Source: Aminiphilus circumscriptus DSM 16581 (GTDB lineage: Bacteria > Synergistota > Synergistia > Synergistales > Aminiphilaceae). Taken from it: a stretch of DNA of 64,000 bases. The number at the start of each line of letters is the position of its first letter. The stretch's first letter is position 1. The translations under genes and the position numbers were made by a program. Location of the stretch: contig NZ_JAFY01000002.1 of NCBI RefSeq assembly GCF_000526375.1, positions 1,054,001-1,118,000 of the forward strand. Reading direction: 5' to 3'. Below are positions 771-31,225 of this stretch, piece after piece. The notes beneath the pieces were generated by a model that worked only from the letters and a program-made list of their open reading frames with translations, ran no database searches and was not told the DNA's origin.

Positions 771-884
771 CGAGGGCCTCCTGAATGTCGTGTTCGGCGG
801 GTCCACTGCGTTCGGGAAGGATCATAACACGAATTTCAGAGCCCCCGCGGTGTGTCGCGTTCGGAGGGATGCCGTCCGTTTCCG

Positions 885-2803: not shown

Positions 2804-2982
2804 GTTCGCTTCCTCCGTGTGTCGTTGACAGACCATCTCCACAGCCCAGACCGGATGTGTCGCTTTCCGGTCCGAGCGTGGATGGCTTCATGGAGAATCT
2901 CCAGGAACCCAAAAGCCTCTGCAAAACGCCCCATCGCCCTCGGGAAAAGGCGATGCGCTCGGGATAAAGTCGGGACATTACA

Positions 2983-3092
2983 TTAAGGGAAGCTCTGAAT
3001 AAAGACCTTTCGCTTTCCCTTGACTCGAGTCGCATCAGGCTCTGCGAGGCGCCCTGCGGGGCTGGCGCAGCCTTATTCAGAGATTCCTAAGG
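2983..3092. repeat. Palindrome-ended repeat element, copy 1
   Basis: About 105 bases bounded by a terminal inverted repeat: GGAAGCTCTGAATAA on the left and TTATTCAGAGATTCC on the right (14 of 15 positions complementary). A second, diverged copy lies at 45852-45956 in the same orientation, sharing the ends, CTTGAC near the left and GCAGCCTTATTCAGAG at the right. It sits in the dctP-dctQ gap. No reading frame is conserved, so it resembles a small non-autonomous (MITE-like) or REP-like element. Confidence 0.75.
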
Positions 3093-3161
3093 AAGAAGGA
3101 AATTCCTTTGCGCAGAGGTTTTTCAAAAGACGCGGCCAACGCGCCGTTCGTGCGGTTTCCC

Positions 3162-3186
3162 ACGGGGGCGGTGTTTCCGCCCCCGT
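3162..3186 (-). other. Hairpin immediately after dctP
   Basis: A perfect 10-base-pair stem (ACGGGGGCGG / CCGCCCCCGT) with a 5-base loop begins 12 bases after the dctP stop. There is no U-run after it on the transcribed strand. It may protect the dctP mRNA end or reduce read-through so that binding protein is made in excess over permeases, a common arrangement in binding-protein operons. Confidence 0.55.
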
Positions 3187-3197
3187 CTCCGTTGCCG

Positions 3198-4241: not shown

Positions 4242-4582
4242 GCGTATCCCTCCGTTCGTTCTCGTTCGTCGTCTTTGGAGCCCGCACAGGGGAAGCGGGG
4301 CGGGCGGTTCCGGCGGCACGCACACGGCGTCGCGCCGAATTCCGGGGCGATTCGTCCGACAGAAGCGACAAATGGGGAAACGGTGCTTTTACGTTGTTCC
4401 CTCGCGTCACCTCCTCACGCCGCACCGGCGGGTCTTTGAAGCGGGTGCGCAGATGCGATGCTCCGCGGTTTCCGGGGCGCGTTCGTCCTTTTTCGCTTCG
4501 GAGACGCTCCGTCCTGAGAAAGGCCGAAGGCGCACGTCACTGCCCCGCAGCGGCAAGGCGGTCCGTCGTGGCCTTCGGAGAG
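4242..4582. other. Intergenic region between DUF2848 gene and dctP
   Basis: 341 bases with no convincing coding frame, repeat or terminator. Both neighbours are read on the minus strand, so it may be a long untranslated spacer or hold a dctP promoter that cannot be recognised by eye. Confidence 0.4.
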
Positions 4583-5278
4583 TCAGTTTCGGTCGGGAAG
4601 GACCCGGACGCGGTAGGCCCCCCGCAGTTCCCGCCCCAGGACGGGATCGGAAAGGCGTAGCTCCCACCGGGAGGCGAAGCGGGTCGCCTTGGCCGAGAGC
4701 GGGATGGTGCCGCTGAAAAGGGCGACCCGGGGCGCCTCGTAGGGGAGATCTTCCTTCGCAAGAGCGAGGAGCGTCTCCGGAGACAGAAGCAGCCCCGTCC
4801 GCCCCCGCTGGTATTCCGAGAACGGTTCGTTTCCGTTGGCGACTCGGGATTCCAGGATCAGGTCGTCCCAGTGATCCTCCAGTTCATCCAACGGCCAGAC
4901 GGTGGACGAAACCACCTTGGTGCAGATCTGCTTCGCCTTCGCCACCGAGACCGCCTCGAGCTTCCGGTCCGTGTGGTCGCTCGCCAGGGCCACGTACCAG
5001 CGCCCCGCGTCGTCGGAGGCGAGAAAAAATTCCACCTCGCCGGAGGTCTCCTCACCCACGACGAAAAGCTCGCTTCCGTCGGTGATCCGCTCCGGATCGA
5101 TCCAGTACATGGAAGGAATCCGAGAGGGAACGGGAACGCCCAGTTCGGCGAGTTCCCGCACGTGGGCCGCGACGCTCTCCTGATTTCGTCCCGCGTAGCC
5201 CACGGCCACGCAGGCATCCCACAGAAGGGTCACCTGGTCCACGCCCTGCCGACTCTCCACCGCGAAACTCTTGCGCAT
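4583..5278 (-). CDS. DUF2848 family protein
   Basis: About 231 residues matching the DUF2848 family by overall pattern (N-terminal WDACVAVGYAGRNQESVAAH, then a GVPVPSRIPSMY segment and a C-terminal GTIPLS). DUF2848 proteins resemble fumarylacetoacetate-hydrolase-like enzymes and often sit beside transporters for organic acids, but no reaction is established. It is the first gene of the operon with dctPQM. The ATG at 5278 is preferred; a GTG at 5320 is an alternative with a poorer ribosome site. No signal peptide is present, so it is cytoplasmic and may act on the imported compound. Confidence 0.7.
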   Translation of the reverse strand: MRKSFAVESRQGVDQVTLLWDACVAVGYAGRNQESVAAHVRELAELGVPVPSRIPSMYWIDPERITDGSELFVVGEETSGEVEFFLASDDAGRWYVALASDHTDRKLEAVSVAKAKQICTKVVSSTVWPLDELEDHWDDLILESRVANGNEPFSEYQRGRTGLLLSPETLLALAKEDLPYEAPRVALFSGTIPLSAKATRFASRWELRLSDPVLGRELRGAYRVRVLPDRN

Positions 5279-5355
5279 GCCTTTCACCCCGTTTCGTCGT
5301 CCGGAACTGTGGCTTTTCACATGCTGTTTCTCTTCGGGAAAGGATTCTGCTCTTC

Positions 5356-5383
5356 ATTGTAGCATTCTCCTTTTTCAGGACAA
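5356..5383 (-). promoter_or_regulatory. Candidate promoter for DUF2848-dctPQM
   Basis: Reading the minus strand, TTGTCC, 16 bases, then TACAAT preceded by TGC (extended -10). It lies about 80 bases upstream of the DUF2848 start and in the right direction. Confidence 0.5.
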
Positions 5384-5463
5384 GGTCATGTGTGCATAGG
5401 GGTTCTTTTCAGTGACGCGGGGCGGTGTGCAGCACGAGAGTGGAGCAGAATGGTATTCCGAGA

Positions 5464-5508
5464 AAACAAAAAGCCTCTCCGGCGGAAACGCACGTGTCGC
5501 CGGAGAGG
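5464..5508 (-). terminator. Rho-independent terminator downstream of acn/citF remnant
   Basis: An 11-base-pair perfect stem, CGCCGGAGAGG paired with CCTCTCCGGCG (arms at 5474-5484 and 5498-5508), followed on the minus strand by TTTTTGTTTTC. It is placed just beyond the citF tail and was probably the original end of the citrate-lyase operon. Confidence 0.8.
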
Positions 5509-5551
5509 TCGCATTTTCTCTGTCTCAGGACGTCAGAAGCTCCGGGCCGTC

Positions 5552-6024
5552 TCAGGAAATGCGGAAGAGGCTGTCCAGGATGGTGCCGTCCCGGTATTCG
5601 ATGAGCGCCACCACGTTCTCCGGTTTCGGGTCGGGAAGGGGAGCCTCCTCGGCCTTTCCCGTCAGGCCCTCCACCTCGGCCTTGAGGTCGGCGATCTCCT
5701 TGACGGGGAGCTTCGCCTTCCGGGCCGCCTCGCGCAGGTCCGTCCGGAGGGGATTGATGCAGATGCCCCGCTCGGTGACGATGGCGTCCACGGTCTCGCC
5801 GGGAGTTCCCGGGGGTCCGTCAGCGTTCCCGTCAGGGCCGACGCGGCGGCTACCTCGGGGCTCACCAGATAGACCTGGCCCGTCTTGTGGCCGCAGCGGC
5901 CGAGAAAGCTTTGGTTGATCGTCCGGAGGGACACGCCCTCCGTGGGCGGCACGAAACCCATGCCGATGCAGGCACCGCAGCTCGATTCGAGAATGCGCAC
6001 TCCCGCGGCCACCAGAGCACGCGG
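5552..6024 (-). pseudogene. Fused remnants: aconitase C-terminus joined to citrate lyase alpha (citF) C-terminus
   Basis: Two different gene tails are read in succession on the minus strand. From about 6024 to 5800 the protein is the end of an aconitase: ESSCGACIGMGFVPP carries a cluster-ligand cysteine motif, then SLRTINQSFLGRCGHKTG and VYLVSPEVAAASALTGTLTDP. At about 5800-5790 the sense frame changes, and from there to 5552 it reads TPGETVDAIVTERGICINP and on to the end, the C-terminus of the citrate lyase alpha subunit. Neither gene has its front part: the aconitase lacks about 90 percent of a normal protein and citF most of its length. The simplest reading is one deletion joining two neighbouring genes of a citrate pathway. 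Confidence 0.75.
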
Positions 6025-6279
6025 TCGCCGGTTTGTTGTTTTTTCGGGCGTGACTTCTTCCCCTTCGGCTGCTCCTTATGCTACGATGGAACGGTCACCA
6101 GGGAAAGTGAAGACGACGAAAAAACTCTCCGCTGCCGAGACCGGGTTCCGCCCCGTGCTTCTGGAGAGGATCGCACGTTCGGGGGCACGGATGGCTCAGT
6201 TCGAATACCGGGTCCTTGCCGGTGCGGCGGGTTTTTCGGGGGCTTTTTTTCAGTACGGACGGGAAGGGGGGTGGATCGT

Positions 6280-6756
6280 GTGAAGAACGGAAATCTCCTC
6301 CTCGTGGCGTCTCTCCGGGAGGCTTCGGATGTGGTTGCGACGCTCGAGAGAAATGGTTTTGCCGTGGCGGCCGTTCCGGATGTCATTCGGGCAGGGCACA
6401 CTCTGGAGCGTGGTCCTTCGCCGGACCTGGCCCTGCTGGATCTCGACGTGCCGGAAAACTGCATTTCCGCGGCAATGGCGGTCCTTGCCTCCCGCCGGGA
6501 GGACGGGGCCGTGTTCGTGGACGTTGCCGACGACGGCGTCGGTTTTGCCCGCGAGGCCGTGCCCGAGGGCGGCGGAGCCGAACCGGCGGCGGACTTTCTT
6601 GTCACATCGGGAGCGGGGCTGCGCCTGCTCGATCCGCCGGCGAAACAGCTCGATGCCAGGGTGGAGCGCTTCGCCGGACCCGGGGGGAAGGGCACGTGCT
6701 TCCGCATTGTCCTTCCAGAAGAAGCGCTCGCCGGGGAAGTGGCGGACGAGGAATGA
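6280..6756 (+). pseudogene. Receiver-domain / histidine-kinase ATPase fusion remnant
   Basis: 158 codons from a GTG at 6280 preceded by GGGGGG. The first 65 residues look like a response-regulator receiver (LLLVASLREASDVVATLERN, then PDLALLDLDVP), but the usual early acidic pair is missing. From about residue 85 the sequence jumps to the end of a histidine-kinase ATPase domain: VDVADDGVGF is the G1 box, and GLRLL with GGKGTCFRIVLPEE is the domain end. The phospho-acceptor histidine region and N-box are absent, so kinase activity is unlikely. It is probably an internally deleted hybrid kinase, though a small regulatory protein cannot be ruled out. Confidence 0.55.
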
Positions 6757-6853
6757 GACGGAGCGGCGACCCGAAAAGGGGCGCCGCGGAGTGGCCGAAG
6801 AAACCGGACAGACCGGACACATCAGACAGACGACTGGAGGAGGCGACCTGTTC

Positions 6854-8638
6854 ATGGAAGGCAGATTCGGGTGGAAACGGCGTATCGGTGTGGTGCTGAC
6901 GGCGCTGGTGCTGTTGGGCGTTGCCGCGGGAACGCTTTGGGCGGAGGTGCCCTCCGCCTACGAGGAAGGGTGGCGCTTCGGCGTCGCCTACCGGAGCGAG
7001 GTGGCGGGCAATCTCGCCGTAATGCATGACGCTTCCGTGGCGCGCGGGATCGACCGGACCGCCGTTCTCTCCGCGGCCCGGGAGCGGGAGGCGCTGTTCC
7101 GGGAGGTGCTCCCCGCCAAGGTGGAGTGGATGCGCGGCGTGGCCGACGGCGCGGGTGTCCCCTACGAGGACGTGCTGCTCTACAACGCAGCGGACCGTCT
7201 GATGACGGGGTTCGTGGGCGAGTGCACCACCTTCGTCGCCTCCGGAAAGGCCCTCGCGGGAGGCAAGGGAACCCTCATTGCCAAGAACCGCGATCTCGGG
7301 CCGAACACCCTCAGCGAAGTGGCCATGGAGGAGGGAGGCACCTTCGCCGCCACCGACGCCTACAAGGCCGCCTACATCGACATTCCCCAGGCGGAGACCG
7401 CCTATCGGTTCGTCGGCTCCCGTTCCGCGGGGCGCTGGGGATACGGAATGGGGATCAACGAGCATCAGGTCACCGTGGCGGACAACGACGCTCCCACCCG
7501 GGACGAACTCGCCTTCGACAAGGGGCTCCACGACAACGACTACGTGCGCCTCGTCCTCGAACGGGCGAAGACCGCCCGGGAGGGCGTGGAGGTGCTCACG
7601 AAGCTGACGGAGAAGTACGGCCAGGCCTGGAACTCCATCATCTTCGAGATCGGAGATCCGAACGAGCTGTGGATCGTGGAAGTCTCGGGAAAGCGCTGGG
7701 TGGCCAAGCAGTACAGGGACACCTTCACGGCCCGGTCCAACCAGTTCCAGATCACCGACGACTACGACCTCGCCGCGGAGGATCTGCTCTCCTTCGCCCA
7801 GTCCAAGGGATGGATCGGCAAGGATGTGACGGGCAAGATCAACTTCCGCGCCGTCTACGGCACCACCGAACTGTACCCCGAGGACAACGAGAACCTCGAG
7901 GATCGCCCCGCCGCGGAGACCCTGTACAACACGGAAATGCGGTACCGTCGGGCCATGGAACTGCTCCAGGGCATCTCCGGCCGCATTTCTCCCGCAGCCA
8001 TGCTCCCCCTGATGCGGGACCACTACGACACCTACCCCCTTCCCAGCGGCAAGGTGCTCGAACTGAAGCAGGTGCCCTACTACAGCACCCCCCTCGCGCA
8101 GGACGAGCGCCAGGAGTGGATGACCGCCTTTCCCGAGGAGGACACCGTGAAAGTCTCCGTCTTCCCCAGGGCGATCTGCCACCACGCTTTCGAGGGAATC
8201 ACCGCCGCAACGGCCATCCTCTCGGCCCGTCCGGACGTGCCGAACGAGCTGGGGCTGATGCTCCACGCCTACATGCAGCCGTGCAACAGCCTTTTCATCC
8301 CCTTCTACACGGGGGCCTCCTCCCTTGACGGGCGGTACAGCACCCCCGAGGCGGGATCGCGCTTCTTCCAGATCTCGAAGATGGCCTTCGGCTCCCACGA
8401 GCTCTACCACGCCCCGCTCCGCATCGTCTTCGACCCCTACGAGGCGAGCCTCTTCAAGGACATGGAGGCCATGGAAAAAGAGTACCAGCGCCTTAAAAAA
8501 GACGGTGCCGACGAGGAAGCCCAGGCGCTGCTCGACGAATTTCTCTACGCCCGGTGGGACAGCGCTCTCGCCGCCGCCGACGAGGGGCTGACCCGGATGC
8601 TCGAGGCCGCCGCGGCCTCTTCCGCCTGGTCCCGCTGA
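6854..8638 (+). CDS. Secreted C45/C69-like Ntn-hydrolase (acyltransferase/dipeptidase family)
   Basis: 594 residues. An N-terminal hydrophobic stretch (about 11-30) is a signal peptide. The region from about 36 to 140 follows the C45 acyl-CoA:6-aminopenicillanate acyltransferase pattern: EEGWRFGVAYRSE, then GVADGAGVPYEDVLLYNA, then GECTTF, where Cys124 would become the N-terminal nucleophile after self-cleavage, and IAKNRDLG. The C-terminal half (CHHAFEGI, LGLMLHAYMQPCNSLFIPFY) is more like C69 dipeptidases. It probably cleaves an amide or short peptide in the periplasm. The ATG at 6854 has GGAGGAGG about nine bases upstream. It is followed by a strong terminator and so forms its own transcription unit. 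Confidence 0.7.
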   Translation: MEGRFGWKRRIGVVLTALVLLGVAAGTLWAEVPSAYEEGWRFGVAYRSEVAGNLAVMHDASVARGIDRTAVLSAAREREALFREVLPAKVEWMRGVADGAGVPYEDVLLYNAADRLMTGFVGECTTFVASGKALAGGKGTLIAKNRDLGPNTLSEVAMEEGGTFAATDAYKAAYIDIPQAETAYRFVGSRSAGRWGYGMGINEHQVTVADNDAPTRDELAFDKGLHDNDYVRLVLERAKTAREGVEVLTKLTEKYGQAWNSIIFEIGDPNELWIVEVSGKRWVAKQYRDTFTARSNQFQITDDYDLAAEDLLSFAQSKGWIGKDVTGKINFRAVYGTTELYPEDNENLEDRPAAETLYNTEMRYRRAMELLQGISGRISPAAMLPLMRDHYDTYPLPSGKVLELKQVPYYSTPLAQDERQEWMTAFPEEDTVKVSVFPRAICHHAFEGITAATAILSARPDVPNELGLMLHAYMQPCNSLFIPFYTGASSLDGRYSTPEAGSRFFQISKMAFGSHELYHAPLRIVFDPYEASLFKDMEAMEKEYQRLKKDGADEEAQALLDEFLYARWDSALAAADEGLTRMLEAAAASSAWSR

Positions 8639-12684: not shown

Positions 12685-12696
12685 GACGGTGAGCCT

Positions 12697-12842
12697 GTTC
12701 TCGGGGCGGGGTGCGAATCCCCACCGGCGGTATCCCGGCTGTGCCGGGGAGCCCGCGAGCGCTCCGTTCCTCTTCGGGGGAGCGGAGGTCAGCAGATCTG
12801 GTGCGATGCCAGAGCCGACGGTGACAGTCCGGACGAGAGAGA
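12697..12842 (+). promoter_or_regulatory. FMN riboswitch (RFN element)
   Basis: The conserved RFN blocks appear in order: TCGGGGCGGGGTGCGAATCC, CCACCGGCGGT, GAGCCCGCGAGCG, CAGATCTGGTGCGATGCCAG, then GCCGACGGTGACAGTCCGGA. A variable stem (CTCCGTTCCTCTTCGGGGGAG) fills the usual insertion. It binds flavin mononucleotide and shuts off the downstream riboflavin gene. No T-run terminator follows, so control is probably at translation (see the hairpin at 12908). Confidence 0.95.
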
Positions 12843-12907
12843 GCGAGCCCTCCGCATTCATTTCCCTGCGGCGTGCCCTGCCCGTTGCATTCCTCCCCCG
12901 ATTCAGG

Positions 12908-12928
12908 CCTCGACTCGATTCGAGGAGG
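12908..12928 (+). promoter_or_regulatory. Hairpin overlapping the ribB ribosome-binding site
   Basis: CCTCGA and TCGAGG form a stem around a 6-base loop, and the 3' arm runs into the GGAGG (12924-12928) that serves the GTG start at 12937. Sequestering this site is the likely output of the FMN riboswitch. Confidence 0.6.
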
Positions 12929-12936
12929 TCGTTACC

Positions 12937-13674
12937 GTGAATCCCCATGTCTGTGCCTGCTCCTGTTCTTTGTCCTCTGCCGCGCCTTCACCTTCTTCCG
13001 CGGTGTCCCCGCTCCCTTCCGTTCCCGCTCCCACCTTGCCGGCCACGCCTTCCGAGCGGGTCCGCGCAGCCCTGGCGTCACTGCGTCGCGGCGAGGGTGT
13101 CCTTGTCGTGGATGACGAGGACCGCGAGAACGAGGGGGATCTGATCTACGCCGCATCATCCCTCACCGAGGCCCAGATGGCCCTGCTCATCCGGGAGTGC
13201 AGCGGCATCGTCTGCCTCTGTCTCCCCGAGGAGAAGATCCGCGAGCTGGACCTTCCCCCCATGGTGGCGAAGAACACCAGCCCCTATCAGACGGCCTTCA
13301 CGGTCTCCATCGAGGCGAGCGAGGGCGTCACCACGGGCGTCTCCGCCGCGGACAGGGTCCGGACCGTCAAGGCCGCCGTGGCGGAAGGAGCCCGTCCGGA
13401 GGATCTGCGCCGCCCCGGCCACGTCTTCCCCCTCTGTGCCCGTCCCGGAGGCGTCCTCGAACGGCGGGGACACACGGAGGCCACGGTGGATCTCATGCAC
13501 CTCGCGGGGCTGCCTCCCTACGGTGTGCTCTGTGAGCTCACCAACCCCGACGGCACCATGGCCCGCCTGCCCGAGATCCTGCGCTTCGGCGCGGAGCACG
13601 GACTTCCCGTGGTGACCGTGGAGGACCTCGTCGCTCACAGACGAGATGTTTCACGAGAACGCGCCGAAATCTGA
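12937..13674 (+). CDS. ribB: 3,4-dihydroxy-2-butanone-4-phosphate synthase
   Basis: 245 residues. It converts ribulose 5-phosphate to the four-carbon precursor of riboflavin. [10 protein letters not shown] (59-68) holds the metal-binding acidic residues; the segment [17 protein letters not shown] and the metal-ligand histidine in GHTEAT are also present. It is the stand-alone form: there is no fused GTP cyclohydrolase II domain. The first 38 residues are a Pro/Ser-rich, cysteine-containing extension absent from most homologues, so a later start is conceivable, but only the GTG at 12937 has a good ribosome site (GGAGG, 8 bases). It is under the FMN riboswitch and no other rib gene follows. Confidence 0.95.
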
Positions 13675-14001
13675 TTTTTTTCGGGCCGCCTTGTCGTCAG
13701 TTTTTCTCGAAGAGGTTTCAAGGAATGTGTCGAATGCGGAGGGAGACGGCGTGCGGTACCTGCGGACAGGAACTCACCTCACTCCGAAATCTTGCAAACG
13801 GCCTTGATGAACCCCCCGAGCGTGGAGACCGTATGTCACTCCGCCCGCTCCCTTCGGAGATGTGCGCCCGGGGCGTGTCCTTTGCCGGGTGCGGGGAGTT
13901 CTCTTGTGAACCCTGCGCCGCGAACCGTGGACTTTAAACAGCGGACTGCGACCGAGGCATTCTTCCCCTCAAACGCTCTTTACGCCGAACATCGAAACGT
14001 C
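13675..14001. other. Intergenic region after ribB
   Basis: No convincing gene. A 70-codon frame with four CxxC-like pairs exists (13725-13937) but lacks a ribosome site and recognisable family, so it is not called. Confidence 0.4.
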
Positions 14002-14030
14002 CGCCCGCGCGCTGCGCGGGCGTTTTTTTC
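14002..14030 (+). terminator. Rho-independent terminator
   Basis: CGCCCGCGC / GCGCGGGCG stem with a 3-base loop followed by seven T. It lies 330 bases after ribB and ends that transcript or insulates the grd unit that starts 300 bases later. Confidence 0.85.
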
Positions 14031-14336
14031 GCCGCCCTGTCGCACCCTTTTGTGCGGACGTCCAAAAGACGTCCGAATTCCTCCTCTAAGGTTCTCGCTC
14101 TGGTCCGATGCGAAAGAACACATTCTTTCCTATGATGCGAATGAAGGAAATGCGGCATTTCGGCGCGACCGGCGAGCGGCGTGCCCCGGCGTGTCGTGAG
14201 CGTCACGGACAACGTGCGAGAACGTGGAACGGGGTACGGAAGAGGGAAACGGATGCGGCGGTGGTGGGAAACTCCGGGGATCGCCGCGCCGGGATGGTTC
14301 GAATGCGCCGGAAGGCGCGGGGGAGGGAGGCGCATC

Positions 14337-15632
14337 ATGCGGTTGGAACTGCACGAGGTCGTCATTCGGCGAATCCAGTGGGGAGACAGGACGGGAGCCT
14401 GGAACGGCGTCCTGACGGTGAACCGCGAGGAGGCCGCCGCGGAAGTGGCGAAGGACGAGCGTTTTGCGTCGGTATGCCTCGATCTGGCCCATCCGGGCGA
14501 GAAGGTGCGGATCATTCCGGTGAAGGACGTGGTGGAACCGCGGGTGAAACTTGCCCGGTCGGGGGAGCCCCTCGGCTATTTTCCCGGGTTCTTCGCTCCC
14601 GCGGGAACCGCGGGGAAGGGGGTCACCCTGGTGTTGCGGGGTGCTGCGGTGGTGACCTGCGGTCCCATCGTGGCCTTTCAGGAAGGGTTCATCGACATGT
14701 CCGGTCCTGGGGCGGCCTACACGCCCTTCTCCGAGACGGCGAACCTGGTTCTCACCGTGGAGCCCGATCCGCGCCTGACGAAGCACGCCTACGAGGAGGC
14801 ACTCCGGCTCGCTGGGCTGCGCCTGGCGGTGTACCTCGCCACGGCGGCCAGGAACGCGACCCCGGACGCGATCTCCGTCTACGAGAAGGGCAACGTGAGC
14901 GACGAGGCGATCCGCCTGCCCGATCTTCCCCGGGTGCTCCACGTCTGCATGGCCATCACCCAGGGGCTCCTGCACGACACCTTCGTGCACGGCGGGGACA
15001 TGAAGGCCTCCCTTCCCGTGCTGCTCCATCCCAATGAAGTGCTGGACGGCGCGGTGGTCTCGGGCAACTGCGTCTCCGCCTGCGATAAAAACACCACCTG
15101 GCACCACCAGAACGACCCCGTGGTGCGCGCGCTCTATCGGCGCCACGGCGAGGACCTCAACTTCCTCGGCGTGGTGGTCACCCCCGAGGATGTGCGTCTC
15201 GCTGGAAAGGAGCGGGCCGCCTCCATGAACGCGGCCCTTGCGGAGAGCCTCGGCGCAAGGGGCGTGATCGTCACCGAGGAGGGGTACGGCAATCCCGACA
15301 CCGATCTCTGTCTCAACGCCAAGCAGATGGAGTGCCGGGGCATTCGCACGGTGATCATCGCCGACGAGGCGGCGGGCACGGACGGTGCGAGCCAGGGGCT
15401 TGCGGATTCCGCCCCGGAGATAGCGGCCTTTGTCTCCACGGGCAACGTGAACGAGATGATCGAGGTGCCCGCCATGGAGCGTGTGCTCGGCTATCCCGAC
15501 GCCATCGCCCTTCTCTCCGGAGGCGCCCCGGAGAGCCTGCGCCCCGACGGCAGCATGTTCGTTGAGCTGCAGTCCGTCATCGGTTCCACCTGCGAGCTCG
15601 GCGCCGGTCGCTGGGGCTGCGCGGAATTCTAG
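14337..15632 (+). CDS. grdE: Glycine/sarcosine/betaine reductase component B, alpha-beta proprotein
   Basis: 431 residues, the length of GrdE/GrdG/GrdI proproteins. Family blocks include VRIIPVKDVVEPRVK, GPIVAFQEGFIDMSGPGA, and SGNCVSACDKNTTWHHQND, in which Cys245 is the residue that becomes the catalytic pyruvoyl group after self-cleavage into beta and alpha chains. The pyruvoyl forms a Schiff base with the amine substrate so that the selenol partner (GrdB) can cleave the carbon-nitrogen bond. The start at 14337 has GGGAGG six bases upstream. grdB follows after 28 bases. Which substrate (glycine, sarcosine, betaine or another amine) is used cannot be told from sequence; grdA, grdC, grdD and thioredoxin genes are not in the window. 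Confidence 0.92.
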   Translation: MRLELHEVVIRRIQWGDRTGAWNGVLTVNREEAAAEVAKDERFASVCLDLAHPGEKVRIIPVKDVVEPRVKLARSGEPLGYFPGFFAPAGTAGKGVTLVLRGAAVVTCGPIVAFQEGFIDMSGPGAAYTPFSETANLVLTVEPDPRLTKHAYEEALRLAGLRLAVYLATAARNATPDAISVYEKGNVSDEAIRLPDLPRVLHVCMAITQGLLHDTFVHGGDMKASLPVLLHPNEVLDGAVVSGNCVSACDKNTTWHHQNDPVVRALYRRHGEDLNFLGVVVTPEDVRLAGKERAASMNAALAESLGARGVIVTEEGYGNPDTDLCLNAKQMECRGIRTVIIADEAAGTDGASQGLADSAPEIAAFVSTGNVNEMIEVPAMERVLGYPDAIALLSGGAPESLRPDGSMFVELQSVIGSTCELGAGRWGCAEF

Positions 15633-15660
15633 GCGTGTCTCGGGAAAGGAGGAACGGACC

Positions 15661-16965
15661 GTGATCTATCGTATTGTCCACTACACCAATCAGTTTTTCG
15701 CGGGGCTCGGCGGGGAGGAGAAGGCGGATCTGCGCCCCCTCGTCCGCCCCGGCGCAGTAGGTCCCGCCCAGGGGCTCGAACAGGCCCTCGGAGGAGAGGC
15801 CGTCGTTGTCGCCACGGTGATCTGCGGGGACAACTACATGGCGGAGCACCTCACCTCCGCCACGGAGGAAGTTCTCGCTCTGATCCGGGAACACAAGCCC
15901 GACGCGGTCACCGCGGGACCCGCCTTCAACGCCGGGCGGTACGGAACGGCCTGCGGCGCCGTGCTGGAGAAGGTCGCCGCCGTGCTGAAGGTCCCCGTCG
16001 TGAGCGGCATGTATCCCGAGAATCCCGGCGTGGAACTCTACGGCAGGAACGTGATGCTCGTGAAAACCGGCGACAGCGCCCGGGGCATGAAGGACGCCCT
16101 GGCGAAGATGGCGGAGGTGACGCGCAAGCTCCTCCGCAAGGAGCCCCTCGGCCCGGCGAAGGAGAGCGGCCTGCTCCCCCGGGGGATCCGGCGAAACGTC
16201 CTCCACGAGAAAAGCGGCGCGGAGCGGGCGGTGGAGATGCTTTTGGCCCGCCTGCGGCAGCAGCCCTTCGTCACGGAGTACCCCATGCCGACCTTCCGTC
16301 GGATTCCCCCGGCCCCTCCCGTGGCGGATCTGCGCAGGGCCACCATTGCCCTCGTCTCCTCCGGCGGCGTCGTTCCCAAGGGCAACCCGGACCGCATCCG
16401 GGTCTCCTCGGCGGAGTCCTACGGCGCCTATGACATCAGCGCACTGGAGGACCTGACCCCAGAGAACTACGAATCCATCCACGGCGGCTACGACAGGGTA
16501 TGGGCGAACGTGGACCCCGACGTGGTGATTCCCCTGGACGTGATGCGCGCCCTGGAAAGGGAGGGCGCCTACGGCAAACTGCACCCCGTGCTCTACACCA
16601 CCACCGGAACGGGAACCTCCGTGGCGCACGCGGAGCGCTTCGGCCGGGAGATCGGTGCCGCCCTCAAGGAGGCCGGTGTTGACGCAGTGATTCTCACCTC
16701 CACCTGAGGCACCTGCACTCGATGCGGCGCATCGATGACGCGGGAGATTGAAGCGACGGCGAACATTCCGGTGGTGCAGATCGCCACCATCGTGCCCATC
16801 ATGCTCACCGTCGGGGCGAACCGTATCGTCCCCGGCGTGGCGATACCCCATCCCGTGGGAAACCCCGCCGCGGGGCCCGAGGAGGATCGGGCGGTGCGGC
16901 GAAGCCTTCTTCTGCGGGCCTTCACCGCCATGACCACCCCCGTGACGGAGCAGACCCTCTTCTGA
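15661..16965 (+). CDS. grdB: Glycine/sarcosine/betaine reductase component B gamma subunit, selenoprotein
   Basis: 434 residues including selenocysteine. The frame is interrupted by TGA at 16705-16707 (codon 349) but continues in the same frame with full family homology to the stop at 16963. The context AVILTSTUGTCTRCGA is the known GrdB active site, with U349, C352 and C355. Upstream, VVATVICGDNYM and ITAGPAFNAGRYG-like blocks match the family; downstream, VVQIATIVPIMLTVGANRIV does too. Reading the TGA as a stop would drop 85 conserved residues. A selenocysteine-insertion hairpin follows (16705-16738). Start is a GTG with AAGGAGGA upstream. It forms the selenol half of the substrate-specific component with GrdE and donates the product to GrdA. 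The sel genes needed for insertion must lie elsewhere. Confidence 0.93.
16705..16738 (+). promoter_or_regulatory. Bacterial SECIS hairpin for grdB selenocysteine
   Basis: Directly after the in-frame TGA, TCGATGC (16719-16725) and GCATCGA (16729-16735) form a perfect stem closed by a GGC loop. The loop begins 18 bases after the TGA, within the range where bacterial SECIS loops are bound by SelB, and the loop starts with G as usual. Confidence 0.8.
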
Positions 16966-17277
16966 TCGGCGGAACGCAGGCAGGGCAGCGGGAATTTTCG
17001 CCCCCCGCCTTTTTTCCGGGCGATTTTCCCGGCAGCGGGGCGGAGGTGACGCAACAACAACGAAGAGAGGAGTGCGCGGCGGCCTGGACCCGTCCGCGCA
17101 GCTTCTCCTTTTTCCGTGCCGGTTTCTTTCGGGAAGGGCACCTTTTCTTTTCGGGGCGTTTCTGCGACGATGGCTTCCGGAAACGCCCCACGCGGAGTTT
17201 GACTTCCGGACCCTGCCCCGGCGGGAATCCGGAGCGCGAAGTGACGAGGCTTCGACACGAAGAAGGGAGGAACGGAC
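16966..17277. other. Spacer between grdB and the OCD-family gene
   Basis: 312 bases with no gene. A weak GC stem (GCGGG / CCCGC) followed by CTTTTTT near 16990-17020 may be a partial terminator. No promoter is obvious, so whether the next gene is co-transcribed with grdEB is open. Confidence 0.35.
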
Positions 17278-18261
17278 GTGAAAGTGCTGTGGCTTTCCCG
17301 CAAGGATGTGGAGGATCTGGGCATTTCCGTGCGCGACGTCACCGAGGTGGTGGAGTTGGGGTTCCGTCTTAAAGGGGAGGGAAAGGTGGAGATGCCGGCG
17401 AAGATCGGCATCCACACCAGGAAGGACTGCTTTCTTCACGCCATGCCCGCCTATGTGGGGGGCGACGTGGACCTGGCGGGAATGAAGTGGGTCGCAGGGT
17501 ATCCGCCGAACCAGGCCAAGGGATTGCCCTACATCACGGGCATCTGGTGCCTCAACGACAGCGAGACGGGCTTTCTCAAGGCCATTCTTGACGCGAGCTG
17601 GATCACCGCCTGGCGCACCGGGTCGGCGAGTGCCGTCTGCGCCCGCCATCTCGCCTCGCCCGAGGCGCGCACTCTCGCCGTCGTCGGGCTGGGTGTTCAG
17701 GGGCGGACCAACTTCGCCGCCATCAAGGACGTGCTCCCCTCCATCTCCCGCGCCCAGGTGTACGACGCCTTTCCCGAACAGACGAAGCGCTTCGTGGCGG
17801 ACATGTCCCCCGGCGCGCCCGACGTGGAGTTCGTCGCCGCTTCGGACGTGAGAAGCTGTGTTCGGGACGCGGACATCGTGGTCACCTGCACGCCCATCGT
17901 CGCGGACCCGCAGCGGTTCATCCCTGTGGACTGGCTCAAGAAGGACGTGCTCTGCATCTCCGTGGACTACGACGCCGCCTTCGAGGCGCCGGTCATGAAG
18001 GACGCCCGCATCTTCGTCTGCGACGACCGCCACCAGTATCTCTGGACCCAGGAGCACGGCGTCTATTTCCAGAAGGGCTATCCCCAGGAGGCGGACCTCT
18101 ACGCCGACATGGGCGACATCTGCGCCGGCACAAAGCCCCCCGTGCGTGAGGGCCGCCGCGCCGCGGTGCTCATGGGCATCGCCAGCCACGACGTGATGAC
18201 CGGCCACCTGGTCTGGCGCAAGGCCATCGAAGCCGGAAAAGGCATCGAGCTGGAGCTGTAG
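17278..18261 (+). CDS. Ornithine cyclodeaminase / mu-crystallin family protein
   Basis: 327 residues, normal for the family. It has the NAD-binding Rossmann motif VVGLGVQGR (about 138-146) and the N-terminal catalytic segment with AGMKWVAGYPPN and RTGSASAVCA. Members include ornithine cyclodeaminase (ornithine to proline), alanine dehydrogenase-type enzymes and ketimine reductases, so the reaction cannot be fixed. It starts at a GTG with GGGAGGAAC upstream. Its place after grdEB suggests it makes or recycles an amino or imino acid linked to that reductase. A strong terminator follows, closing the unit. Confidence 0.85.
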   Translation: MKVLWLSRKDVEDLGISVRDVTEVVELGFRLKGEGKVEMPAKIGIHTRKDCFLHAMPAYVGGDVDLAGMKWVAGYPPNQAKGLPYITGIWCLNDSETGFLKAILDASWITAWRTGSASAVCARHLASPEARTLAVVGLGVQGRTNFAAIKDVLPSISRAQVYDAFPEQTKRFVADMSPGAPDVEFVAASDVRSCVRDADIVVTCTPIVADPQRFIPVDWLKKDVLCISVDYDAAFEAPVMKDARIFVCDDRHQYLWTQEHGVYFQKGYPQEADLYADMGDICAGTKPPVREGRRAAVLMGIASHDVMTGHLVWRKAIEAGKGIELEL

Positions 18262-18281
18262 CCCCGACCGGACACACGACG

Positions 18282-18336
18282 TTCCCGGAATGTCCCGTGC
18301 GCGTTCTCGCGGGACTTCCGGGAATGTTTTGTTTTG
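18282..18336 (+). terminator. Terminator of the grdEB-OCD region
   Basis: TTCCCGGAATGTCCCG pairs with CGGGACTTCCGGGAA (one bulge), then TGTTTTGTTTT. It begins 20 bases after the OCD-family stop. Confidence 0.8.
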
Positions 18337-18448
18337 GGTTTTCGTGTTGCGTTGTCGTTTTGCGTTTCCGTTTTTGTTTTCGTGTTGCGGTGTCGCACGC
18401 TTCACGGGGAACGCCCGTTTTTTCCTGCGAAAGAGAGGTGCGTTCCCC
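18325..18448. repeat. G/T-rich low-complexity tract and inverted repeat
   Basis: From 18325 to about 18395 the plus strand is nearly all G and T in GTTTT/GTTTC units. It is followed by GGGGAACGC (18406) and its inverse GCGTTCCCC (18440). No gene is present. Confidence 0.5.
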
Positions 18449-18500
18449 GGAATGTCGCGGTCGCGACGCATGCGGAAGCGAAAAAATCGATGCCGGCGCG

Positions 18501-18785
18501 TTACCTGCCGGATTTCGCCACAAAGCGAATTTCGACGGCGCAGCCTACGGCTCGGGCGTAACTCCTGAGTGTTCGCAGTGAAGGAGCGTGGTCGTTGTTG
18601 GCTTTGAGGCGCGAGACGGCGCTTTTCGTGGTCCCCATCGCTGCGGCGACCTGTTCCTGTGCGAGTCCGGCGCGCTTTCGCGCCGTCAGAAGCTCCCGTG
18701 CGAGTGCCTGTTCTTCCTCCAGCAGACCGTCCTTCATCGCCCGTGAATACGGCATTCCCAGGTCAGGGCCGAACTCCACAACCAA
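18501..18785 (-). pseudogene. XRE-family HigA-like antitoxin fused to a toxin fragment
   Basis: The C-terminal 65 residues are a clean XRE helix-turn-helix of the HigA type: LARELLTARKRAGLAQEQVA, then MGTTKSAVSRLKA and PSLRTLRSYARAVGCAVEI. The N-terminal part, VEFGPDLGMPYSRAMKDGL, is instead the middle of a RelE/HigB-type toxin, where a GxxLGMPYSR motif precedes the catalytic beta strands. The start is a TTG or GTG without a good ribosome site, and an in-frame stop lies 17 codons upstream. So toxin and antitoxin genes appear joined, with the toxin's active end and the antitoxin's start lost. It may still encode a DNA-binding protein. Confidence 0.55.
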
Positions 18786-18877
18786 TTCGACGGCCCGAGC
18801 GTAAGCAGCTAGAATTCCCGGCGGTCAGGATTCGATCGTAGCCAGAAGACGCCCGTATTGTTTCACGTCGGAGGCGT

Positions 18878-18905
18878 TTGCATAGTGCCCAAGGTGTGGG
18901 ATAAT
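18878..18905 (+). promoter_or_regulatory. Candidate promoter for the helicase-methylase-ATPase operon
   Basis: TTGCAT, 16 bases, GATAAT, about 230 bases upstream of the helicase start. An AT-rich stretch with poly-A/T runs follows (18930-18990), clearly lower in GC than the surroundings. Otherwise the 18786-19135 gap holds no gene. Confidence 0.45.
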
Positions 18906-19135
18906 TTCTCTGAACAGCAAAGAAAACTACGCAAATGGATTAAAAATTTTTTTGAAAATTCGTAAAAGCTTCGAAATGTGTTTTCATTGTTTTAGCGGCG
19001 CGCAGTCTGCTTGTTCTCCTTGCCCGCGAGCTAAGTGCGGCGGAAGTCATCGGAAAGCGGAACGTTGAAAAAAACGGAGTGGCGTATTCTTGAGGGAAGG
19101 CCTTTTTCGATTTCGGGACAAGGAGGATGACACCC

Positions 19136-22702
<3,567 letters not shown>

Positions 22703-22720
22703 GGAGCTGATCCGCACAGC

Positions 22721-25633
22721 ATGACGGAGAACACGGAGAAGAAAAAACTCATCGAGGTCGCTCTTCCCCTGGATGCGATCAACGTTGCCGCCGCCCGCGA
22801 AAAATCCATCCGCCACGGTCATCCGAGCACGCTGCATCTCTGGTGGGCCCGGCGACCTCTCGCCGCCGCCCGGGCGGTGCTCTTCGCCCAGATGGTGGAC
22901 GACCCTTCCGCGCATCCCGGTCTTTTCCCCACGAAGGAAGAGCAGGACCGGGAGCGCCAAAGGCTTTTCAGGATTCTGGAGGAGCTGGTGCTCTGGGAAA
23001 GCAGCACCGACGAGGAGGTCCTCGAAAAGGCGAGGGAGGAGATACGCGCATCCTGGCGGCGGACCTGTGCGGAAAACCGGAATCATCCCCGCGCCACCGA
23101 GCTGTTCGACCCGGAGAGACTCCCTGCGTTTCACGATCCCTTCGCCGGAGGGGGTGCTCTGCCCCTGGAGGCACAGCGACTGGGGCTCGAGAGCTATGCC
23201 TCGGATCTCAACCCCGTGGCGGTGCTCATCAACAAGGCCATGATCGAAATACCGCCCCGCTTCGCCGGAAGACCTCCCGTGAACCCCGAGGCGCGAAAGG
23301 ACAACAGGCTCTTTGGAACGGAGTGGAAGGGAGCGTGCGGTCTCGCCGAGGACGTGCGTCATTACGGCAGATGGATGCGCGACGAGGCGGAGCGGCGTAT
23401 CGGCCACCTGTATCCCAAGGTCGGGATTACCCCGGAGATGGTGGCGGAGCGCCCCGACCTGGAGCCCTACAAAGGCGCGCAGCTCACCGTCATCGCCTGG
23501 CTCTGGGCGCGGACCGTCAAGAGCCCCAACCCCGCCTTCGCCTCCGTGGACGTGCCGCTGGTCTCCTCCTTCATGCTCTCCACCAAGCCTGGCAGGGAGG
23601 CCTATGTGGAGCCCGTCGTCGGAAACGGCGGATACCGGTTTGTCGTGAAGATCGGCAAGCCAGGCGACCCGGAAGCGGCGAAGAGCGGTACCAAGCTCTC
23701 CCGCGGGGCGCATTTCCGCTGCCTTCTGTCGGGGACGCCGATTGTCGGCGACTATATCAGGGCGGAGGGGAAAGCCGGACGGATGGGAGCCCGGCTCATG
23801 GCGATCGTCGCGGAGGGGGATCGGGGGCGGGTGTATCTTTCCCCGACTGCGGAACAGGGAAATGTTATTCGCAGTCTAACAATGCCGGAATGGGTTCCTG
23901 AAACGTCTCTCCCCGATGACCCGAGGCATTTTTCGACCGTACAGTATGGTTTAACGACATATGGCAGTCTCTTTACTCCCCGCCAGCTCGTGGCTCTGAC
24001 CACTTTCTCCGACCTTGTGGGAGAAGCGATGGAGTGTGTCCGGCACGATGCGGCGGCAGCCGGTTTGCGCGACGCCTCCGCTGATGCGGAGGGTGCGGAC
24101 GGCCACCTGCGGGATGGCGGCTCCGGCCCTCTCGCCTACGCCGAAGCGGTAGGAACGTATTTGGCATTTGCCGTCGATAAGGCGGCGGATTACTGGTCAA
24201 CAATTTGTTCGTGGCATTCGAGCAAAGAGCTGATTCGTAATACATTCGCTAGACAGGCAATACCAATGATATGGGATTTTGCGGAGGCAAACATTTTTTC
24301 CGGATCAACGGCGAACATGTCGAGCGGAATCGAGTGGATAGGGAAGACCCTGTCCGAGCTGATGGACGGAGCGGCGGGTTTTTCCCGACAATGCGACGCT
24401 CAAGCTCAGGTGCTGAGTTATGGCAAGATCGTCTCTACCGACCCCCCCTACTACGACAACATCGGCTATGCCGATCTCTCGGATTTCTTCTATGTCTGGC
24501 TCCGGCGCTCGCTTCAGCCGGTTTTTCCGGATCTCTTCGCCACCATGAGCACGCCCAAGGACGAGGAGCTGATCGCCTCGCCCTATCGTCACGGCAGCAG
24601 GGAGAACGCCGAATCGTTCTTTCTCGGGGGTATGACGAGGGCCATGGAGCAGCTGGCCGAACAGGGGCATCCCGCCTTTCCCGTGACCGTCTACTACGCC
24701 TTCAAGCAGTCGGAGACCGATGAGGGCGGCACCGTGAGCACCGGATGGGAGACCTTTCTCGCCGCGGTGATCCGGGCCGGATTTGCCGTCACGGGAACGT
24801 GGCCGATGCGTACGGAACTCGGTAACCGTATGTTGGGCAGAGGGACCAACGCCCTTGCCTCCAGCATTGTCCTTGTCTGCCGCAGGCGCCCTGCCGACGC
24901 GCCGGTGACGACACGGCGCGACTTTCTGGCCGCGTTGAAGGACGAGCTTGCTCCGGCGCTGCGCCTGCTCCAGTCGGGAAACATCGCTCCCGTGGACCTT
25001 GCCCAGGCGGCCATCGGTCCGGGCATGGCGGTGTTCACCCGTTCCGCCGCAGTGCTGGACGCCCAGGGAAAACCGCTCTCGGTGGGAGATGCCCTGGCGC
25101 TCATCAATAAGGTTCTGGACGAGATGCTGGTGGAGCAGGAGGGGGATTTTGACGCCGAAACCCGGTGGGCGTTGGCGTGGTTCGAGCAGCATGGTTTCGA
25201 CGAGGAGGAGTTCGGCACGGCGGAGACGCTCTCCAAGGCGAAGAACGTCTCCGTGGAGGGACTGGCGGAGGCGGGAATCCTCGAATCCAGGCGGGGGCGG
25301 GTGCGCCTTCTGCCTCCGGGGGAGCTGTTCCGGGAGTGGGATCCGGCGAAGGACTCCCGCCTCACGGCCTGGGAGATGGTGCACCATCTCATCCGGGTCC
25401 TCGAAAGCGCCGGAGAAACTTCCGCTGCGGAGCTGGTTGCGAAGATGAGGGGGCGGGCCGAGACGGCCCGCGACCTGGCCTATCGGCTGTACGCGCTGTG
25501 CGAGAGGAAAAAACGGACCGGAGAGGGCTTGTCGTACAACGGGCTGGTGCAGAGCTGGCCCGAGATCGTTCGTCTCGCCCGGGGCGGCGCGGTACGCCCG
25601 AGGGAGCAACTTTCGTTTGAAAGTGAGGAATAA
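22721..25633 (+). CDS. DUF1156 adenine-specific DNA methylase (COG1743)
   Basis: 970 residues. N-terminal [19 protein letters not shown] is the DUF1156 signature. Motif I is [12 protein letters not shown] (139-150), and the catalytic motif IV is [13 protein letters not shown] (DPPY at about 574-577), followed by the [12 protein letters not shown] segment typical of the family. It is predicted to methylate adenine N6 and so mark host DNA, with the helicase and the HEPN-DUF499 protein as partners. The next gene starts three bases after its stop. Two stretches inside it (about 23860-24000 and 24150-24330) are distinctly lower in GC than the rest, as if recombined from another source. Confidence 0.9.
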
Positions 25634-25636
25634 ACC

Positions 25637-28600
25637 ATGGCCATGACGAACCGGGAGCGTGTCGAAAGAGCGATGGAGCTGTTGCGGCAGGGACTTGCCC
25701 CCTTTGTCGAGCGGGAGTTCCGCAATCAGTACGGAGTGGATCCGTCGGCGAAGGCACAGTCGCTCTTCGTGGAGGACCGCATGGCCCAGAGGCCCCTTGT
25801 CGAGTGGGATGTGTCGTTGCTTCTGAAACTCATGTGGGATGCGTGGAACGAGGTGTTTCGCCAGGTCCTCGGTTTTTCCGAGCGTTCTCTCGTGAGTGAA
25901 CTGCGGGAGTGGCGCAACAAGTGGGCGCACCAGGAGACCTTCACGGGCGACGATACGGACCGGGTTCTCGATTCGGCGGCCCGGCTGCTTGCGGCGGTGT
26001 CGGCGAAGGAGGCCGACGACGTTGGGAGAATGAAGATGGAATTGCGACGCCTCATCTTCGACGAACAGGTCCGGGGCGAGAAACGCAGGATCGGGGGTTC
26101 CCTCGTGGAAGCCGCGTCGGGGGCGCTGAAGCCGTGGCGGGAAGTGATCGCCCCCCATGCGGATGTGGCGAGCGGCCGCTACCAGCAGGCGGAGTTCGCC
26201 GCGGACCTGTGGCAGGTTCACCTCGGCGAGGGTACGCCCGAATACCGGGATCCCCGGGAATTCTTCCGTCGAACTTTTCTCACGGAAAGCCTGAAACGCC
26301 TCCTCGTCGGCGCCGTGCAGCGTCTCCGGGGTTGCGGCGGAGATCCGGTGGTGCAGCTCCAGACGAACTTCGGCGGCGGCAAGACGCACTCCATGCTCGC
26401 CCTGTACCACCTTTTTTCCGGTACATCCCCGGGAGAGCTTGCGGGTGTGGAGGAGGTCCTCGCCGAGGCTGGTGAAAAGGCGCTTCCATCGGCCCGACGC
26501 GTGGTTCTCGTGGGCAACAAGATCTCTCCGGGCAACCCCGTCACGAAGTCCGACGGAGTGACGACGGTACGCACCCTCTGGGGGGAACTTGCGTGGCAGC
26601 TCGGCGGAGCGGAGGCCTATGCCCGGGTGCAGGCCGACGACGAACGGGGAACGAACCCAGGCGACGTGCTCCGGGAGCTGTTTCGGGAATACGGCCCCTG
26701 TCTTGTCCTGGTGGACGAATGGGTGGCCTACGCACGGCAGCTTCACGACCAGAGCGATCTCCCCGCGGGGAGTTTCGAGACCCAGTTCAGTTTCGCCCAG
26801 GCTCTCACCGAATCGGCCCGTCTCGCGGGGAACTGCCTTCTCGTCATTTCCCTGCCCGCGTCGGATGCGGCGGGATCTCCCCATACGAACGCCGACGATG
26901 TGGAAGTGGGGGGCATTCGTGGGCGGGAGGCTCTGGATCGCCTTCGGAACGTGGTGGGACGCCTGGAGTCCTCGTGGCGCCCCGCCACGGCCGAGGAGGG
27001 GTTTGAGATCGTTCGGCGCCGGCTTTTCGAGCCCCTCGCCGGGACGAAGTCCTTCAAGTACAGGGATGTGACCGCCAGAGCCTTTTCGGAAGCGTATCGT
27101 GCGCAGAGTTCGGAGTTTCCCCCGGAATGTCGCGAGGCGGACTACGAGGAACGGATTCGTGCGGCCTATCCCATTCACCCGGAGGTTTTCGACAGGCTCT
27201 ACACGGATTGGTCCACCCTTGTGAAATTTCAGCGTACCCGGGGTGTGCTGCGCCTCATGGCGGCGGTGATTCACAGCTTGTGGGAGAAGGGAGACCGAAG
27301 TCCTCTCATTCTGCCCTCCATGATTCCCATAGACGATTCCCGGGTGCAGTTCGAGCTGACCCGTTACCTTTCGGACAACTGGGTCCCCATCATCGAAAAG
27401 GACGTGGACGGGCAGAACTCTCTTCCGTTGAGACTTGACGGAGAAAACCCCAACTTCGGTAAACTTTCCGCTGCCCGACGCGTGGCCCGCACGATCTATC
27501 TCGGCTCCGCGCCCACTGCGGCGGCGGCTCACCGGGGACTTGAGGATCGGCGTGTGAAACTCGGCTGCGTGATGCCGGGAGAAACGCCGGCGCTCTTCGG
27601 CGACGCGCTGCGCCGGCTCGCTGCGTCGGCGACCTATCTTTTTCAGGATGGTGCCCGGTTCTGGTACTCCACTCAGCCGACGGTGACCAAGCTGGTGGAA
27701 GACCGGGCCGAACAGTTGCGGCGTGATTCCGACAAGGTGGCGCAGGAACTCGACGAGCGGCTTCGTGCGGATCTCCGGCAGCGGGGAGATTTTCCGAGGA
27801 TTCATGTCTTGCCGAGAGCGGGGGCGGATGTTCCCGACGATCATGTGACGAAGTTGGTGGTCCTGTCCGCGGAATATCCGTACAGCAGGGGAAAGGAAGA
27901 GACGAGCTCCGCCGAGGCGGCGGCAAAAGCCATCCTCGAATCCCGGGGAAGTGGCCCGCGTCTCTATCGGAACACGCTCGTCTTCCTCGCTGCGGACAAG
28001 GTACGGCTCCAGGATCTCGACGAGGCGCTCCGGAAGTATCTTGCCTGGAGGTCGATCCTTGCGGAAAAGGAAAGCCTCAACCTCGACCCGCATCAGGTCC
28101 GCCAGGCGGAGGAGCGAAAACGTTCCGCGAACGACGAGGTTGTCGCACGGCTACCCGAGACCTATCAATGGCTGCTCGTTCCCGAACAGGAGACGCCCCA
28201 GCCTCCCCTTGCCTGGAAGGCGCTTCGTCTGTCGAACGGCGAGGGCCTTGCCGTTCGGGCGTGCAGAAGGCTCCGCAGCGAGGAACTGCTGTTGTTCTCC
28301 ATCGGCTCGACTGTTCTTCGGCAGTGCGTGGACCGGATTCCTCTCTGGCGTGGTGATTCGGTTTCGGTGAAGCAGCTCGTGGAAGATTTTGCAAGCTATC
28401 TCTATCTGCCCCGCCTCGCCGGTCCCGAGGTTCTCGTGGCGGCGGTTGCGGATGGTGTCGGTCTTCTTTCCTGGAGGAACGATTCCTTCGCTTTCGCCGA
28501 GGGGTACGACGAATCATCGGGACGTTATCCGGGCCTGAAGGCGGGAGAATCCCTTGCTCTCTCGGGCGAACCCCGCGGTCTTATCGTGAAGCCCGAGGTG

Positions 28601-29008: not shown

Positions 29009-29038
29009 CGGTGGAAGATACTCCCGACAGGAGAAAGT

Positions 29039-29064
29039 GCCGCGCCGGAAGACTCCGGTGCGGC
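29039..29064. terminator. Hairpin between convergent genes
   Basis: GCCGCGCCGG / CCGGTGCGGC with a 6-base loop sits between the stops of the DUF499 gene and the ABC ATPase gene on the other strand. It lacks a long U-run on either strand but is well placed to end both transcripts. Confidence 0.5.
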
Positions 29065-29087
29065 GCGTCACTTCGAGAGGGGAAACC

Positions 29088-31126: not shown

Positions 31127-31225
31127 GAGAACCTCTTTTCGTGCAAAAATTTTACAAAAATATGAAAAAAATCATCCAAAAGACTTTTGACCAAGATGAT
31201 CCACGAGAGTTTTCACGAGAACGGT

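Follow-up and report, generated by a model that had tools for sequence, protein, structure and literature searches.

A selenoprotein component B pair of Aminiphilus circumscriptus falls in a Synergistota-only clade and possibly acts on a substrate beyond the sampled groups

Component B decides which molecule a Grd-type selenium reductase turns into acetyl phosphate, and few of its substrates are known. We analysed a 64,000-nucleotide stretch of the genome of Aminiphilus circumscriptus DSM 16581 (the window; NZ_JAFY01000002.1, positions 1,054,001 to 1,118,000), in which a grdE gene, a selenocysteine (Sec)-containing grdB gene and a gene of the ornithine cyclodeaminase (OCD)/mu-crystallin family follow one another on the forward strand. 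Our results suggest that the grdEB pair is the substrate-specific component B of such a reductase, that it belongs to a clade found only in Synergistota and split from glycine component B, that a non-glycine amine is its likely substrate, and that the OCD gene is probably a unit of its own. We hold this combined reading with moderate confidence. An earlier reading made from the DNA letters and their open reading frames (the sequence-only reading) had described the pair as an orphan and the OCD gene as a clue to a new amine substrate. Its observation was confirmed, and its interpretation was partly supported.

The three genes are real and lie where that reading had placed them. grdE runs from an ATG at 14337 to a stop at 15632 (431 aa) and matches PF09338 over residues 1-425 with 594 bits. 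grdB starts with GTG at 15661 and stops at 16965 (434 aa; PF07355, 516 bits; TIGR01918, 561 bits). The OCD gene (17278-18261) follows after a gap of 312 bases (16966-17277), and the bounds 14337-18261 fit the gene starts and ends. The family assignments of the three proteins leave no doubt. The in-frame UGA of grdB (16705-16707) is codon 349, within STUGTCTRCG, and as Sec (U349) it is followed by a CxxC motif (UGTCTRC). The genome encodes tRNA-Sec (79 bits, cut-off 47), the one part of the Sec machinery that was looked for. A hairpin resembling a selenocysteine insertion sequence lies inside the grdB coding sequence at 16719-16735, 11 bases past the UGA. It reads UCGAUGC-GGC-GCAUCGA and matches the hairpin of the genome's canonical grdB, UCGUUGC-GGC-GCAACGA, with one compensating pair change; neither hairpin was unusually stable when compared with shuffled sequences (z -0.4 to -0.9).

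In GrdE, the residue that we take to form the pyruvoyl group is Cys245 (SGNC 242-245, in SGN-CVSACDKN; codon at 15069-15071). In glycine- and sarcosine-type enzymes this site becomes a pyruvoyl group. The alignment showed Cys in all 30 rows of the Synergistota clade described below and in 143 of the 159 GrdE rows; the other 16, which are betaine-type and others, have F or G. The UxxCxxC motif is intact in 30/30 GrdB rows of the clade. The pair therefore has what a component B of any substrate type has, two adjacent full-length subunits with Sec followed by CxxC, and its Cys245 points to the amine type. Models of the two proteins were predicted from 51 of the 73 GrdE and 51 of the 80 GrdB sequences at hand, with a predicted local distance difference test score of 84 for GrdE and 87 for GrdB and a predicted template modelling score of 0.88 and 0.57, respectively. 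Fold searches with both models gave no convincing solved relative, and a sequence search of the PDB with GrdE and GrdB found none.

Relatives were collected from 101 genomes of the same order, 185 genomes of the phylum, one scan of titled genome contigs and Clostridia reference groups, and all counts refer to the matches listed. The window pair fell in a Synergistota-only clade in every tree: 33 of 167 rows in the GrdB tree (support 100), 30 of 58 rows in the GrdE tree and again in a second GrdB tree (support 99), and 23 of 59 rows in the joint GrdE+GrdB tree (support 100), built without one long-branch row of L280. The clade adjoins the phylum's own glycine enzymes yet is separate from them in all trees; in the joint tree the two are sisters (support 99). 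Genes passing the GrdF cut-off, a second Clostridia group that probably contains the sarcosine enzyme of strain DCMF, and betaine-type pairs linked to BCCT genes stand elsewhere in the trees. The rows of these trees do not include the GrdF/GrdG and GrdH/GrdI whose function was proven biochemically in Peptoclostridium acidaminophilum and Sporomusa. Of the 80 loci kept in the scan of titled contigs, 5 have an identity of at least 62%, each titled as a Synergistota lineage; the rest reached 59% at most. The check that the sequence-only reading had proposed, placing GrdE/GrdB against the glycine, sarcosine and betaine clades, thus put the pair in a separate clade of this phylum. Since the pair stands outside the sampled glycine, sarcosine-type and betaine-type groups, it is reasonable to propose an as yet unassigned amine for it; that the substrate is a new one is possible and unproven.

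The family models agreed with this placement. The window pair scored below the cut-offs of the substrate-specific NCBIfam models given here, and the best one for GrdB was GrdF. The scores were 527 bits (cut-off 602) with TIGR01917 for glycine component B, 595 (800) with NF040794 for GrdF, 479 (780) for GrdE with NF040793, and 493 (775) with NF040795 for GrdH. The GrdF model is narrow, with few genes above its cut-off in the 118 genomes of one order (at least 6 genomes). Window GrdB and GrdE are 59% and 54% identical to the genome's own glycine pair, with which they share full-length subunits, Sec, UxxCxxC and the pyruvoyl-type Cys; they differ from glycine component B in their clade, in their fixed residues and in standing outside an operon with A, C and D. 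The betaine enzyme GrdI/GrdH is built from the same protein families, but the betaine-type rows lack the pyruvoyl Cys and have a BCCT gene nearby at 13/13 loci, whereas the window pair has the Cys and no BCCT. D-proline reductase (PrdA/PrdB) is a distant homologue (TIGR04480, 58 bits against a cut-off of 700; TIGR04483, 90 against 300). Its PrdB was found in 7/183 Synergistota genomes and not in this one, and a D-proline reductase role was ruled out for this genome. Taken together, the sequences indicate that the pair is a distinct component B in a lineage-specific branch, which probably acts on a molecule other than glycine.

To which molecule the clade may have turned was examined through fixed positions. 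The glycine comparison set was defined as GrdB with GrdC within 2.5 kb (82 rows, with GrdE for 45 of them; L285, L290, L335 and L336 were left out). The comparison sets may hold one gene twice; the GrdF set of 7 stands for 6 genes. At 85% or more on both sides, the clade differs from glycine enzymes at 12 GrdE and 19 GrdB positions. At GrdB 315 and 317 the clade has T and T (30/30), as have both sarcosine-type sets, whereas glycine enzymes have V (77/82) and N (82/82). GrdB 273 is also common to the clade and one or both sarcosine-type sets, and in GrdE I207, G290, Y317 and V371 agree with the second, DCMF-type set. These shared positions speak against glycine and give a weak hint of a secondary amine. 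The most likely substrate is a non-glycine amine of glycine-like structure, with sarcosine or another N-substituted glycine as the first candidates.

Several observations weigh against this choice. The resemblance to sarcosine enzymes is partial: many of the fixed differences, among them GrdB R247, E252, E325 and M381, are found in neither sarcosine-type set, and the pair lies outside both sarcosine-type groups. GrdB T317 and GrdE Y317 occur in betaine-type rows as well. The label of the second set is itself uncertain, since the presence of the DCMF sarcosine enzyme among its 11 Clostridia rows is deduced from the order of locus tags; PMC6778437, in the part available, gives the DCMF locus tags and no coordinates. 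Finally, as the phylum's glycine enzymes form the sister group of the clade, the pair could be a glycine isozyme, a second glycine component B that reduces glycine under other conditions and whose differences are drift. The sister position in the joint tree and the retained amine-type Cys245 are what such an isozyme would have. The 31 positions that separate the clade from glycine enzymes, the sarcosine-type residues at GrdB 315/317 and the dedicated regulator of the relatives argue against an isozyme, which we regard as unlikely.

The pair is not an orphan. The claim that it occurs without grdA, grdC or grdD holds at this locus, where none of the three was found near the pair in the 64-kb window, but it fails for the genome, whose contig C5 carries grdE, grdA, grdB, grdC and grdD in a row. 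The grdA of C5 has TGA as its Sec codon, and its grdC and grdD exceed their cut-offs (NF040746, 738 bits, cut-off 450; NF040747, 543 bits, cut-off 350). With this complete operon and tRNA-Sec, the same genome can provide components A and C in trans, and the orphan reading was ruled out. A comparable arrangement is the proposed fluoroacetate reductase FarE/FarB of Cloacibacillus, which PMC10838667, in the part available, presents as a component B pair away from grdACD that feeds shared A and C. The same source describes betaine and fluoroacetate types as lacking the pyruvoyl cysteine, FarE as lacking the pyruvoyl cysteines and FarB as lacking CxxC; the window pair has both features and matches NF053623 with 176 bits (cut-off 675), which sets it apart from FarE/FarB.

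We propose that the pair works as glycine and sarcosine reductases do. Cleavage of GrdE between Asn244 and Cys245 would create a pyruvoyl group, which would form a Schiff base with the amine substrate. Sec349 of GrdB would then attack the CH2 carbon and hand the carboxymethyl group to GrdA, and GrdC/D would release acetyl phosphate. GrdA, GrdC and GrdD of this genome would come in trans from the C5 operon.

The neighbourhoods of clade relatives, with genes checked by profile or phmmer, are consistent with such a system. We examined 37 clade loci, and dropped 9 with less than 1 kb upstream from the count of regulators. In 26 of the remaining 28, a divergent CdaR-type regulator adjoins grdE; the window and L086 are the only two without it. 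Within 6 kb downstream, grdA was found in 13/37 loci, mostly after grdX and thioredoxin, and grdC was also present at two (L297 and L086). In L066, the small gene behind grdB encodes GrdX (NF038093, 62 bits, cut-off 40). The CdaR-headed relatives with grdX, thioredoxin and grdA suggest that the clade is a functional component B line that delivers to GrdA and GrdC. In the genus of the window, the local CdaR and the grd partners are lacking beside the pair; a CdaR homologue that may be the former partner lies elsewhere in the window, at 52015-53589.

As the window pair stands without the regulator, grdX, thioredoxin and grdA that accompany many relatives, it may be little used, which weighs against our reading of it. 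At the extreme, it would be a relic, a stranded copy on its way to being lost, as its long branch (0.43 in the joint tree) might also suggest. The genes themselves speak against decay. Both frames are open, all motifs are intact, and the codon changes between the window and its congener are mostly synonymous (34 synonymous and 10 other in GrdE, 43 and 19 in GrdB). We consider a relic highly improbable.

The OCD gene has been a second source of substrate hints. It encodes 327 aa (PF02423, 184 bits), and its closest solved relatives are delta1-pyrroline-2-carboxylate reductase 6t3e (133 bits) and, next, archaeal alanine dehydrogenase (122 bits), with which it shares Lys70, Arg113 and Asp230. A set of 31 close homologues keeps these residues without exception, and most of its members also have a VDYD motif that sets them apart from the solved enzymes. 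No NCBIfam equivalog cut-off was reached (best, ala_DH_arch, 170 against 409; PRK06141, 92 against 322), so membership in either enzyme type was not assigned and the name ornithine cyclodeaminase was rejected for the gene.

If an N-alkyl or cyclic amino acid were processed jointly by the products of grdEB and the OCD gene, the OCD enzyme would make or recycle the amine that the reductase consumes. The genes are adjacent on the same strand in both species of the genus, as the congener locus L064, in spite of its short upstream flank, also has the OCD gene beside grdEB; the gap roughly matches the genes in conservation (313 alignment columns, of which 18 are mismatches and 5 indels); the best solved relative is the delta1-pyrroline-2-carboxylate reductase named above; and another OCD gene lies 5.2 kb from grdEB near the distant clade member L195. 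The survey of relatives, however, found no conserved linkage. We compared 93 GrdB stretches that extend 4 kb or more to either side, some of which cover one place twice; the window alone has an OCD gene within 4 kb of grdEB, and the linkage is confined to one genus with two genomes. The OCD subfamily itself is widespread, with matches at 1e-30 or better in 68/183 genomes and a single match in the window genome. It usually stands elsewhere: of 17 genomes in which the surroundings of the OCD gene were retrieved, 9 have an RpiR regulator near it and 6 an aconitase X large subunit. In addition, a terminator-like hairpin followed by T6 (16985-17015, forward strand) lies between grdB and the OCD gene and is kept in the congener; it was not reported by the consensus scan, which also found no promoter-like site in the gap. 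A shared pathway therefore appears quite improbable.

An RpiR-DctP-DctM-RidA-dehydratase cluster without an OCD gene starts at 61774, 43 kb away, and looks as if the OCD gene had moved out of it. This cluster (RpiR, TRAP transporter, RidA and SDH-alpha-type genes; window 61774-64000, and also L345) elsewhere includes an OCD gene and aconitase X. From the survey, the gap hairpin and this cluster, we read the OCD gene as probably a neighbour by position and not a partner. It would be an imine-reductase or amino-acid-dehydrogenase type enzyme of an RpiR/TRAP-linked pathway, probably transcribed separately. The idea of the sequence-only reading that the OCD linkage hints at the substrate was thereby rejected, and the cyclic amino acid that it had suggested gains no hint from the reductase itself. 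Clade members have their own grdA and sometimes grdC, which suggests, from the known Grd mechanism, a substrate of the form X-CH2-COO- that yields acetyl phosphate. Searches of the literature by title and abstract found no grdEB-OCD unit as a subject, and a search on Aminiphilus found nothing on this locus. For this window the result is thus mainly corrective: the pair has partners elsewhere in the genome, and the OCD gene is not to be used for guessing the substrate.

cis-3-Hydroxyproline may be the substrate of the pathway to which the OCD gene belongs. According to the part of PMC8184944 available, the monomeric type of aconitase X is tied to hydroxyproline and the heterodimeric type to mevalonate phosphate. 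In the aconitase X near OCD elsewhere, the swivel domain is in a separate gene. At L279 (G000:C2:806000-825900), two aconitase X genes are accompanied by genes for urocanase, an aromatic amino acid lyase and formiminotransferase, a setting that looks like a histidine-degradation cluster.

Hydroxyproline also enters through the relatives of GrdE. The nearest GrdE relatives outside the genus are those of G026 and G033 (about 76% identical, all others reaching about 66% at most), and GrdE groups the genus with G026, G033 and G053 (support 98 in the GrdE tree and 97 in the joint tree). In G026 and G033 the pair adjoins CdaR, a HypD activase and HypD (NF043068, 1191 and 1176 bits, cut-off 1100), and grdB is followed by a divergent gene resembling prolyl-tRNA synthetase (ProRS); in G003 and G010 such a gene is found at a distance of about 1.1 kb. 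A Clostridia pair, L327, is also near HypD and a tRNA-editing-domain gene. The pair might accordingly serve hydroxyproline or proline catabolism and reduce an imino acid or the product of trans-4-hydroxyproline dehydratase. Against this, HypD is seldom near a listed GrdB (at least 2 of the 81 HypD-bearing Synergistota genomes and at least 1 of 43 HypD-bearing genomes of one Clostridia order), it lies on another contig in the window genome, and the GrdB tree alone does not group the window with G026, G033 and G053. Grd chemistry, moreover, needs a substrate of the form X-CH2-COO-. We judge this explanation very unlikely and keep the HypD adjacency as a lead only, since it is rare.

The L327 locus (254-8240) is a Clostridia grdEB outside the clade, with grdX, a tRNA-editing-domain gene, a ThiF-family gene, HypD and its activase on one strand. 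The divergent ProRS-like protein, in which Pfam matched the tRNA-editing domain and not the synthetase domain, has matches in 71/183 Synergistota genomes (it was recorded at L278:6438-8000, L082:10489-12024 and L297), and in four genomes of three families it adjoins grdEB or lies about 1 kb from it.

Returning to the non-glycine component B that we favour, a phylum-wide clade that has its own regulator and fits none of the sampled substrate groups is a concrete place to search for a further electron acceptor in the fermentation of amino acids. A more specific version would make the clade a new Stickland acceptor system, in which a CdaR-linked component B reductively cleaves an N-substituted glycine that is not known so far as a substrate of these reductases to a free amine and acetyl phosphate. 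Examples would be N-carboxymethyl amino acids of the opine type and compounds encountered in collagen or hydroxyproline breakdown. We offer this as a tentative and rather doubtful proposal. Octopine-dehydrogenase-type genes adjoin two other grdEB pairs of different groups, at L195:11475-15591 (403 bases away) and L333:6616-10402 (40 bases away), which suggests opine reduction there and makes the opine version testable.

Other features of the window were recorded around the pair. Upstream, at 12693-13674, an FMN riboswitch (93.5 bits) precedes a DHBP-synthase (ribB-type) gene. After this gene, a terminator-like hairpin of 9 GC pairs followed by TTTTTTT (14002-14023, forward strand) gives a hint that a new unit begins from grdEB; the region 13600-18600 has 7 terminator-like sites, against 4.6 in shuffled sequences. 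Downstream, about 13 kb (18337-31399) are absent from the congener, in which the counterparts of window positions 18336 and 31400 are separated by about 90 bases. This segment holds a full HmaA-HmaB-HmaC anti-phage set at 19127-29008 (PADLOC, 1645, 1523 and 1150 bits). Further on, a RhuM-family gene is found at 57127-58221 (PF13310, 387 bits; PADLOC candidate PDC-S05, 498 bits), and a SAM riboswitch (88.8 bits) at 58600-58700.

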